NCBI GenBank assembly: GCA_949290355.1
Contig: CASERN010000011.1
Coordinates: forward strand, 795,865 to 859,864
DNA from: an uncultured bacterium
Lineage (GTDB): Bacteria; Cyanobacteriota; Vampirovibrionia; Gastranaerophilales; Gastranaerophilaceae
Length of the DNA: 64,000 nt
Direction of reading: 5' to 3'
Each line of letters starts with the position of its first letter. The stretch's first letter is position 1. The notes below the pieces were generated by a model. The model ran no database searches, was not told the DNA's origin, and saw nothing but the letters and a program-made list of their open reading frames with translations. Below, one piece after another: positions 16,400 to 22,440 of this stretch. A program made the translations under genes and the position numbers.

Positions 16400-17068
16400 T
16401 TACCACTTTAATAATGTATTAAGCATAATTGAAGCATCATAAGCGTCTTTTGATTTCAATCTTACGTATTGGTGCTTCTCATTATTTATAACACACATAG
16501 TATCACCGCATCGCCTCATAAATTCATATAATAAAGAGTAATCCGCAGCTTTTTGGCGAACTTTATTACATTCTTCAAAACTATCACAAATTTTTGACGG
16601 ACCAACTTCACCTTGTCTTACTAAATTAAAATCTTTTTGCGAATAATCAAATAAAATATAGTTACTTCTCATCTCTTTTGAACTTAAGTAAGAATTAACT
16701 TTATCTCTAAATTCTAAATCAGAATCAGAATTTTTATATGTGTAAAATACAACTTTTTTATCAGAATTAAAAATTTGAGTCCAAACGTTGGAATTTTTAG
16801 AACCTCTTAAAGCTGCCTCTGGAATTATATTAGGCTGATATGATTCATATTTTTTTACAGTTTGTTTTTTATTGTCAGCAGTACCTAAAAAAGAAAACTT
16901 GTCTCTTGATGAGTATGCTTTTGAATCCATATTATTAGTTAAATTACCAAAAGCTTCTTGGAAATCAGATGGAGCAAATCCCTTTAAAAAACCCGTAAAA
17001 TAAGCTATACTTAACAATACAAATATACAAACAACAAAACCAAATATCTCTTTCAATTTTTCATTCAT
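16400..17068 (-). CDS. Membrane-anchored hypothetical protein, thioredoxin-like fold possible
   Basis: 222 residues. One N-terminal membrane anchor (residues 9-27) is followed by a soluble domain with a VVFYTYKNSDSDLEFRDKV segment and a late VINNEKHQYVRL strand, reminiscent of a thioredoxin-like fold. There is no CxxC; cysteines are scattered. The function is unknown. ATG 17068 is chosen over 17080 because GGAG lies at the right distance. It is divergent from rpsL and convergent with leuD, 1 bp apart. Confidence 0.7.
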   Translation of the reverse strand: MNEKLKEIFGFVVCIFVLLSIAYFTGFLKGFAPSDFQEAFGNLTNNMDSKAYSSRDKFSFLGTADNKKQTVKKYESYQPNIIPEAALRGSKNSNVWTQIFNSDKKVVFYTYKNSDSDLEFRDKVNSYLSSKEMRSNYILFDYSQKDFNLVRQGEVGPSKICDSFEECNKVRQKAADYSLLYEFMRRCGDTMCVINNEKHQYVRLKSKDAYDASIMLNTLLKW

Positions 17069-17126
17069 ACAAATCTCCAAATCTCTTTTTGATTATATAG
17101 CATTATTAATATATTTGCAATATTTA

Positions 17127-18101: not shown

Positions 18102-18120
18102 TTTATTAATAAAAGTAAAA

Positions 18121-18149
18121 AAAGGAGAAGTTAAAATAACTTCTCCTTT
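18121..18149 (+). terminator. Terminator after rpsG (also serves the convergent gene)
   Basis: AAAGGAGAAGTT (18121-18132) pairs with 18138-18149, followed by T residues. A-tract and T-tract flanks make it usable in both directions; the convergent Hcp-like gene stops at 18153. Confidence 0.9.
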
Positions 18150-18152
18150 TTT

Positions 18153-19739
18153 TTATAAATTATTCAACATTTTAAGATCATCTTTTGGTGAACTTATTTC
18201 AAAAATCCCATATAACTTTGTAAATGTTTTTAAAACTGACGGGTTAATTACTAAAGGTGGGCAATCAGATAAAAATATTTTTTTTGCACCTAAATTTTTC
18301 AAATGTATAATGATTGGCAAAGAATTTATATCACATTGAGTTAAGTAAAATACGAGTTTTTCAGAGTTTAGGGGTACTTTTTCTGCAAAAAGTTTTATTA
18401 CATTTAATAATAGAGAATAATCATTCCCTATATTAATGCTAAATACATTATCCAAATCAGGGTCTTCTGAAAAAGTTATTGCGAAATAATTTGCAGGGAA
18501 GAATTTAAAAAATGAATTATAATAATCTTTTTGCTTCATGGAAAAATTTGAAAAACCAAAAATGAAAATTTTATCATAATTTGAATTTACAATTTCATTA
18601 AATTTTTCTTTTAATATATCAGCATTATACCCAACTTTTTGTTCTTTTCTTATTTGTCCTTTAGCAAAGCCTTTAGCCTGCATTGCGGAGTCAATAACAG
18701 GCTTGAAATTATTATTTGATATTTTTGCTACTCCTTGAGCAGAAACTTCATCAGTTGTAAATAAACGGCCTCTATACAAATATTCAATATTTTGAGTTTC
18801 ATTTTTTGTCAAAAGCACAGCTCCAGGAAAAGTTGCGAAGTCTAAAATTGTACTGTAAGTCCCTGTACCATACTGACCTTTTAAATTTTTAAAATTTTTA
18901 AAATGAGAAAAAGCATGAGCAGAAAGCAAATTACCATTTGTATATACATCAATATCATATGGTTCTACATCCTTTAAAAGAGCATCTAAATCCGTAAAAT
19001 TTGACCCTGAGACAAGAATTGCTTTATTTGGACTCGTTGAGAAAGAAACACTATTTTTCTCCACCGGACCATATAAGTTTATTTGTATTTCACTTATTTT
19101 ATTTAAAATATTTATATTTGCCTCCGCAAGAGAGCCTATATTATTTTTTAAAATTTCAATAGACAATCTATCTGAATTAAAAACATTTAATGCAAGAAAT
19201 ACTTTTTCTGATTCCTCAGGCAAAAGAAAATTATAATCATAAAGTCTTGCAAAATTTGAACATACACTTTTTATCAAAGATATTAAAATTTCAGCTAAAT
19301 ATTTTTCATTTTTCTTATATGTTCTATATTTTGCAGAAAATTCTTTATTACCTTTTTTTAAAATTGCAGAAAGGCTTGTCTTTGGAGAAATTTTTATAAT
19401 ATTTTTTAAATTTATACAGTTGATATGATTTGTTTTACAAAAATCTTCATATAATTTCTTTAACTTTATTAAATTACTATATTCTTTTGAAAAAGAATTA
19501 AGTACCTGAGATTCAGAAAAATCTTTAGCAGCATCAATTGATGCAATTTCCAAGATTATATCTTTTTCAATTGACTCAAAAGTCATATCATAAGACTTTA
19601 ATTTTAAAATATAATAGGCAGTCTGTTTTAAAATAGTAAACATTATTTCTTGCATAGAAGAAATATTAGGAGCAACAGAACAAGCTCCTTTGGAAACACA
19701 ATCATTATACTCAAAATTTAAAGATGAATTATAAAACAT
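18153..19739 (-). CDS. Hybrid-cluster-protein (Hcp/prismane) homologue lacking all hybrid-cluster ligands
   Basis: 528 residues, near the usual Hcp length. The segment around 240-330 aligns with Hcp from memory (KAILVSGSNFTDLDALL, DVYTNGNLLSAHAF, KGQYGTGTYS, FPGAVLLTKNETQ). Real Hcp uses His, Glu and Cys here (SGHD, THGEM, TTNC); this protein has Ser246, Asn270 and Glu314. The later cysteines are also gone: Phe396 and Ser424 replace two, a gap removes the third, and the final Glu region reads YLTQCDINSL. Of the four N-terminal cluster cysteines only Cys14 and Cys20 remain. It is probably not a hydroxylamine or NO reductase. It follows a glutaredoxin gene by 5 bp. Confidence 0.8.
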   Translation of the reverse strand: MFYNSSLNFEYNDCVSKGACSVAPNISSMQEIMFTILKQTAYYILKLKSYDMTFESIEKDIILEIASIDAAKDFSESQVLNSFSKEYSNLIKLKKLYEDFCKTNHINCINLKNIIKISPKTSLSAILKKGNKEFSAKYRTYKKNEKYLAEILISLIKSVCSNFARLYDYNFLLPEESEKVFLALNVFNSDRLSIEILKNNIGSLAEANINILNKISEIQINLYGPVEKNSVSFSTSPNKAILVSGSNFTDLDALLKDVEPYDIDVYTNGNLLSAHAFSHFKNFKNLKGQYGTGTYSTILDFATFPGAVLLTKNETQNIEYLYRGRLFTTDEVSAQGVAKISNNNFKPVIDSAMQAKGFAKGQIRKEQKVGYNADILKEKFNEIVNSNYDKIFIFGFSNFSMKQKDYYNSFFKFFPANYFAITFSEDPDLDNVFSINIGNDYSLLLNVIKLFAEKVPLNSEKLVFYLTQCDINSLPIIIHLKNLGAKKIFLSDCPPLVINPSVLKTFTKLYGIFEISSPKDDLKMLNNL

Positions 19740-19744
19740 ATTTT

Positions 19745-19975
19745 TTAAACCTTACTTTGCAAATAATTAATTATATCTTCAGACTCATACATACAAATAT
19801 TATTTTTTGTATCGTTAAGAAAAGGAACCTGAAACTTTCCACCCAATTCAAGCAATTTTTCCTTATTTTTTTCATCAGAAATATCTTTTTTATTATATGA
19901 AATACCTGATTCCGCTAAAAAATCCATAACTTTTCTACAATACGGGCATGTTTCTGAAATATATATATCTAACAT
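19745..19975 (-). CDS. Glutaredoxin-like protein
   Basis: 76 residues with the CPYC active site (Cys10 and Cys13), a VPFLND cis-proline loop and a C-terminal YESEDIINYL, all as in small glutaredoxins. These reduce disulfides or glutathione mixed disulfides, or bind Fe-S clusters. ATG 19975 is chosen over 19996 because AAGGAGA lies just upstream. It is the first gene of a two-gene unit with the ligand-less Hcp homologue. Confidence 0.88.
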   Translation of the reverse strand: MLDIYISETCPYCRKVMDFLAESGISYNKKDISDEKNKEKLLELGGKFQVPFLNDTKNNICMYESEDIINYLQSKV

Positions 19976-22062: not shown

Positions 22063-22440
22063 ATGAACGGGATATTAACAAATTCTTCAGAAGCCAGAGC
22101 AAATAATATTAATAACACTAAACAAACAGAATCAGTAGAAACAGCAGGTTCTCTTGCAATGAATCAATTTCATAGTTTGTTTGAAACGAAAGTATATGAC
22201 ATGTTTACATCAAGCAATCCATTTGCTGTAGACTATTCTCAATATTCAGAATCAGGAAATACTGTAGCATATACTGGAGGTTTTTTAAGCAGCTTTTCTA
22301 ATGCTGTATCTACATTATCATCAGGCAGCATAAGTTCAACAAGTGCTTCTTCAGGCTCTTTTGCATCAGCTTCTTGCGGAGGTTTTTCAGGGGCATCATG
22401 TTCAAGCTCTGGCGGTGGAGGATTTTCATCAGTTTGTTAA
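22063..22440 (+). CDS. Hypothetical protein with Ser/Gly/Cys-rich tail
   Basis: 125 residues. The N-terminal half is polar, while from about residue 75 the protein is Ser/Gly/Ala low complexity with three late cysteines and ends FSSVC. No signal peptide is visible. AGGAG lies upstream of the ATG. It may be a small structural or surface protein; no function is recognised. It is followed by a good terminator, so it is monocistronic. Confidence 0.65.
   Translation: MNGILTNSSEARANNINNTKQTESVETAGSLAMNQFHSLFETKVYDMFTSSNPFAVDYSQYSESGNTVAYTGGFLSSFSNAVSTLSSGSISSTSASSGSFASASCGGFSGASCSSSGGGGFSSVC

Follow-up and report, generated by a model that had tools for sequence, protein, structure and literature searches.

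Hybrid cluster protein homologues without hybrid-cluster ligands, encoded beside a glutaredoxin gene in Gastranaerophilales

The stretch of 64,000 nucleotides analyzed here, called the window, encodes a 528-aa homologue of the hybrid cluster protein (Hcp) that keeps none of the seven ligands of the hybrid cluster. Few Fe-S clusters are as unusual as the one for which Hcp is known. Judged from the aligned sequences, this cluster is lost in the whole clade to which the window protein belongs. The clade spans nearly an entire family of common gut bacteria, which are relatives of cyanobacteria. Every hybrid-cluster ligand is gone, the fold is under strong selection, and a new pair of cysteines is present; the clade is thus a natural experiment on the Hcp fold without its cluster. 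It seems that an ancestral metalloenzyme was converted to another task, probably one based on thiols.

Locus and fold

The Hcp-like gene and a glutaredoxin gene constitute a two-gene unit on the minus strand of the window.

18117..18153, minus strand: terminator-like hairpin with a T-run, between the Hcp-like gene and the convergent rpsG (read from the sequence)
18153..19739, minus strand: CDS of the ligand-less Hcp homologue, 528 aa (ORF call, Pfam Prismane, AlphaFold2 model and fold comparison)
19745..19975, minus strand: glutaredoxin CDS, 76 aa, with CPYC, QVPF and YES in this order (ORF call, Pfam)

The stop codon of the glutaredoxin gene is at 19745-19747, and 5 nt separate its ORF from the start of the Hcp-like gene. 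The sequence AAAAGGAGAA lies upstream of the glutaredoxin ATG. By its sequence, the hairpin at the other end could terminate in both directions. In 66 of the 80 related loci, the rpsL-rpsG side as well as the wecB side lies no more than 5 kb away, indicating that the unit occupies a conserved genomic place. Two other ORFs are observed in the window, both with no Pfam match. One (22063-22440, plus strand) encodes 125 aa and ends in a tail rich in Ser, Gly and Cys (SCSSSGGGGFSSVC). The other (16400-17080, minus strand) encodes 226 aa with a single N-terminal hydrophobic stretch, and ORFs resembling it are present at the matching place in three other loci (L217, L220 and L225).

The 528-aa protein matches the Prismane family (PF03063) with an E-value of 1.2e-27. 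Its scores against the NCBIfam models hybrid_clust and PRK05290 are 164.7 and 172.6 bits, where the cut-offs are 360.8 and 367; less than half of the equivalog cut-off for hydroxylamine reductase is reached. The nearest relatives whose structures have been solved are Hcp of E. coli, Desulfovibrio and Methanothermococcus. The AlphaFold2 model, for which 55 family members were the input, has a pLDDT of 86.7 and a pTM of 0.88. Residues 1-21, which include C14 and C20, are unordered and of low confidence. The earlier note had proposed a comparison with Desulfovibrio Hcp, with the lack of a structural match as grounds for giving up its reading; the model aligns with D. vulgaris Hcp (1e1d) over 501 residues at 3.2 A with a Z-score of 31.3. 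The Z-score against carbon monoxide dehydrogenase (CODH) is only about 16, so CODH is not the closer fold and the Hcp fold is kept over the full length. On the basis of the model, the protein is confirmed as a full-length Hcp homologue with the three-domain Hcp fold. By its sequence, it nevertheless does not pass the ligand tests that define Hcp, and it should not be classed as Hcp.

Cluster ligands and new cysteines

Ligand columns were read against Hcp proteins in which all eleven ligands are intact. The following positions of the window protein, assigned by alignment, are all encoded on the minus strand.

19698..19700, minus strand: C14, a former cubane cysteine, third of four
19680..19682, minus strand: C20, a former cubane cysteine, fourth of four
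19437..19439, minus strand: C101, a near-invariant cysteine
19002..19004, minus strand: S246, at the position of the His ligand
18930..18932, minus strand: N270, at the position of the first Glu ligand
18798..18800, minus strand: E314, at the position of the first Cys ligand
18549..18551, minus strand: S397, at the position of the persulfide-Cys ligand
18333..18335, minus strand: C469, one residue before the Glu494 ligand of D. vulgaris Hcp; Tyr or Phe in canonical Hcp
18330..18332, minus strand: D470, aligned with the Glu494 ligand of D. vulgaris Hcp
18261..18263, minus strand: C493, after the next strand, aligned with Thr in the GPTLPAF loop of canonical Hcp

The seven hybrid-cluster ligands (one His, two Glu and four Cys) are all missing. 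The earlier note had read Ser, Asn and Glu at 246, 270 and 314, which is exact, and had reported the three later cysteines as gone. S397 replaces the persulfide Cys, and most of the loop bearing the next two Cys ligands is deleted, which leaves it too short for both. The final Glu, also noted as absent, is Asp in the window protein and in 78 of the 81 close family members, which are the window protein and 80 aligned relatives with 36-61% identity. In divergent lineages the column holds T, N, H, A, S, Y or G instead. Across the 81 proteins the ligand columns are mostly S/N/G, N/D/S, E/S/A, S/D/A/T and Y, with D at the last. Since 80 relatives show the matching loss, chance is excluded, and the Hcp homologue without ligands that the earlier note described from one gene extends over the family. 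Of the conserved, metal-free scaffold proposed there, the conservation of the scaffold and the loss of hybrid-cluster binding stand, and the term metal-free is narrowed to the hybrid cluster.

Only C14 and C20 remain of the four cubane cysteines, as had been noticed before. With two of four ligands missing, the cubane cluster is very probably lost as well, as far as can be read from the sequence. In Hcp, the N-terminal part becomes disordered when just one cubane Cys is lost (PMC10502027); the first 21 residues of the model, which are of low confidence, resemble this state.

It could be supposed that the hybrid cluster is still assembled through replacement ligands and that the protein is an ordinary Hcp reductase, as the overall preservation of fold and length would allow. 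This is highly improbable. The protein has 0/7 ligands, most of the loop with two Cys is deleted, and another residue stands in for the persulfide Cys. According to PMC10502027, all three HCP classes conserve the residues that bind the metalloclusters. On these sequence grounds, an ordinary Hcp with a hidden hybrid cluster is nearly excluded.

Three cysteines that the earlier note had missed, C101, C469 and C493, are near-invariant in the family, and none of them is conserved in canonical Hcp. In total, 120 family proteins were examined for C469 and C493, and 119 could be scored, as L092 ends at the end of its contig. Both positions are Cys in 115 of the 119, both are missing in four, and a loss of one alone is never observed. 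The four proteins without the pair (L160, L169, L170 and L174) belong to three separate branches; these three joint losses on the tree are too few for significance (sign test, p 0.25). C101 is lost on four branches and C14/C20 on three to four, and the losses of C101 are separate from those of C14/C20. The pair is retained where C14 and C20 are gone (L171-L173, L175 and L178-L180). In the model, the strands 462-466 and 487-490 are consecutive, and C469 and C493 follow the former and the latter, respectively. Therefore, the two cysteines should share one edge beside the old cluster site, where they would be spatially close, in the C-terminal Rossmann-like domain. Conservation is not significantly concentrated at the C-terminal ends of strands, that is, at the edge of the old active site (p 0.22).

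The cysteines could also belong to a rewired metalloprotein, in which a metal or Fe-S centre simpler than the hybrid cluster has taken its place and is bound by C469 and C493, with C101 or with C14 and C20, and perhaps by D470 and H275. As some glutaredoxins carry Fe-S clusters, the neighbouring one could load or repair such a centre. Up to five near-invariant Cys, the invariant H275, and the Asp that holds the old Glu ligand position in nearly all close family members are in favor of this explanation, and the joint presence or loss of C469 and C493 suits shared metal ligands equally well. However, only these two are always retained together. D470 is exchanged in divergent lineages, C101 as well as C14 and C20 have been lost repeatedly, and the N-terminus bearing C14 and C20 is unordered in the model. 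A rewired metal centre, the main rival of the thiol-based reading proposed below, is considered unlikely, though it keeps some weight.

Two groups of family members with diverged sequences were observed. Tandem duplicates of the ligand-less gene (L166, L167 with 2 copies, and L168 with 3 copies) are divergent at the old ligand columns, and each copy retains C101, C469 and C493. A deep subfamily (L154-L165 and L032) encodes proteins of about 480-510 aa whose C-terminal part is diverged and in which C469 and C493 are mostly kept; no glutaredoxin was found beside the gene at these loci.

Distribution, selection and canonical Hcp

The ligand-less gene is present in 28 of the 33 genomes of the window's genus. 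In family f1 of Gastranaerophilales, a match to the family profile was obtained in 113 of 117 genomes and in 99 of 100 good-quality ones, a few of which possibly have canonical Hcp only. The profile matched 111 of 117 genomes of the order. Named relatives in the species collection are metagenome-assembled genomes of Gastranaerophilales or Melainabacteria, together with records that bear names such as 'Fusobacterium sp. CAG:439' and 'uncultured Brachyspira' and are presumably mislabelled. The search of the phylum revealed no ligand-less Hcp outside the order; the best matches there are canonical Hcp. The two best of them (G198 and G279) were considered as family members and rejected, both being canonical Hcp; the frame of the former is broken by a run of N. 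In the tree, all sampled members form one clade separate from canonical Hcp, with an SH-aLRT support of 100.

Partly degenerate Hcp homologues are also present in two other families of the order. In f7, L035 retains the cubane Cys together with part of the ligands, His being changed to Arg, and L042 and L046 have two cubane Cys left. In f6, L044 and L047 have no cubane Cys. In the midpoint-rooted tree these sequences cluster with canonical Hcp and not with the window's clade, implying that ligand loss may have occurred more than once.

The chance that the gene is a decaying relic of an Hcp gene is negligible. The gene has been lost outright in four genomes (G013, G021, G027 and G177), whose syntenic site shows a clean gap, and a stop codon lies within the matched region in five others (G010, G081, G172, G184 and G090), as decay would predict. 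Against these cases, nearly all genomes, from dozens of genera, have a full-length open frame. The dN/dS ratio (NG86) between close pairs is 0.03-0.18, and 28 columns are invariant across 55 proteins. The earlier note had asked for orthologues with the same substitutions and for signs of frameshifts or relaxed selection; the substitutions recur in the 80 relatives, and the data on selection and distribution refute decay.

A normal Hcp, which the earlier note had proposed to look for, is encoded at another place in the genome that contains the window (G000:C2) and has all eleven ligands. Canonical Hcp was found in 16 of the 33 genus genomes; 15 have both types and 13 have the ligand-less type only. 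This co-occurrence in 15 of the 28 genomes with the ligand-less gene, together with the loss of all catalytic ligands while fold and length persist, would suit a non-redox pseudo-enzyme, a scaffold or regulator of, for example, canonical Hcp or an electron carrier, with its cysteines being structural. The other 13 of the 28 genomes give no canonical match, so the protein cannot exist solely to regulate canonical Hcp. The conserved, newly gained Cys pair and the pairing with a glutaredoxin gene suggest thiol chemistry, and a pseudo-enzyme is quite unlikely.

The glutaredoxin, possible function and known systems

The ORF upstream of the Hcp-like gene scores 48.9 bits against PF13417 (cut-off 22) and 35.1 bits against PF00462 (cut-off 22.9); with domains above the gathering cut-offs, the active-site Cys and the VP and ES motifs, it is a glutaredoxin. 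In 73 of 80 loci a glutaredoxin gene is directly upstream. In 72 of them it ends within about 20 nt of the start of the Hcp-like gene; L094 was counted as paired because its apparent gap stems from a start codon placed too early. The active site of the 72 glutaredoxins is CPYC in 53, CPYS in 13 and CPFC in four. Cys10 is always present and, like P51 and S65, invariant, and the VP and YES motifs are nearly always present.

The partnership proposed in the earlier note thus holds as a gene pairing, but the tie is not obligate, because the glutaredoxin outlives the Hcp-like gene and because deep lineages have no such glutaredoxin. The Hcp-like gene has been cleanly lost from at least four genomes that still carry the glutaredoxin; in G013, G021, G027 and G177 the latter is retained between rpsG and wecB. 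Five deep lineages (G136, G110, G140, G060 and G129) show no clear copy of this glutaredoxin at E <= 1e-6; at the locus of G129, a divergent glutaredoxin adjoins the Hcp-like gene. In G069 and G065, which have two or three tandem Hcp-like genes, the glutaredoxin is on a different contig. Neighbours of copies without a glutaredoxin, inspected by eye, include no common redox partner. Nor are the cysteine pair and the glutaredoxin tightly coupled, given these deep lineages, the 13 CPYS proteins among the 72, and L169 and L170, where the pair is lost and the glutaredoxin is still adjacent.

Genes for glutathione synthesis are widespread: GCS2 is present in 26/26 and GSH-S_ATP in 25/26 sampled genomes. 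The window's own genome has both, and they adjoin in several genomes (G129, G066 and G060). Glu_cys_ligase (PF04262), the proteobacterial type, is absent from all 30 genomes searched. From these gene contents, glutathione synthesis is plausible.

A neofunctionalised Hcp paralogue of family f1, which retains the fold and has lost the hybrid cluster, is proposed on this basis. The linked pair C469/C493, gained beside the emptied cluster site, would be its working centre. It would switch between the dithiol and an oxidised state, which may be a disulfide, an S-nitrosothiol or a persulfide, acting on a small substrate or a partner protein, and would be re-reduced by thiols. The reductant in most lineages would be the glutaredoxin translated from the shared unit, supplied by glutathione. 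We infer the redox cycling, the role of glutaredoxin as reductant and the class of substrate; an S-nitrosothiol, an NO-derived species or sulfane sulfur are guesses that draw on the ancestry of the protein. As a whole, a hybrid-cluster-free scaffold with thiol redox at C469/C493 and thiol reductants, mostly the adjacent glutaredoxin with glutathione, has the best support among the readings but is tentative, a serious possibility that falls short of being probable. The broader statement that Hcp has become, family-wide, a cysteine-pair redox enzyme that handles NO-, nitroso- or sulfane-sulfur species, and that a dedicated glutaredoxin with glutathione recycles it, is doubtful. Prismane-family genes in gut Gastranaerophilales need a check of their ligands before they are read as hydroxylamine or NO reductases.

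The earlier note knew of no family of this kind; likewise, no description of a ligand-less Hcp, or of Hcp in Gastranaerophilales, was found in the open-access literature, which was the scope of the search (subscription papers lay outside it). The partner glutaredoxin shares the CPYC, VP and ES motifs (PF13417, PF00462) with glutaredoxins of the Glutaredoxin 3, GrxB and GST_N types, but it scores below every NCBIfam equivalog cut-off and usually has an Hcp-like gene downstream of it. Hcp of class III (M. marburgensis, 7e0l) and Ni,Fe-CODH share the superfamily fold (Z 29 and about 16, respectively). The window protein differs from both in its missing ligands and lower similarity, and from class III in its longer N-terminal helical part. 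For class II with Hcr, the E. coli structure 7de4 is the best PDB sequence match by profile (193 bits); in the window, the ligands are missing and a glutaredoxin gene, instead of an Hcr-like gene, is adjacent. The likeness to class I (Desulfovibrio and Methanothermococcus; PF03063, TIGR01703) covers the three-domain fold along the entire protein (Z 31), the SG..DL, YT.. and FPGA motifs and the gene length. In contrast to class I, the window protein lacks the hybrid-cluster ligands and half of the cubane ligands, its ligand loop is shortened, and it has the new C101, C469 and C493 and a glutaredoxin neighbour.
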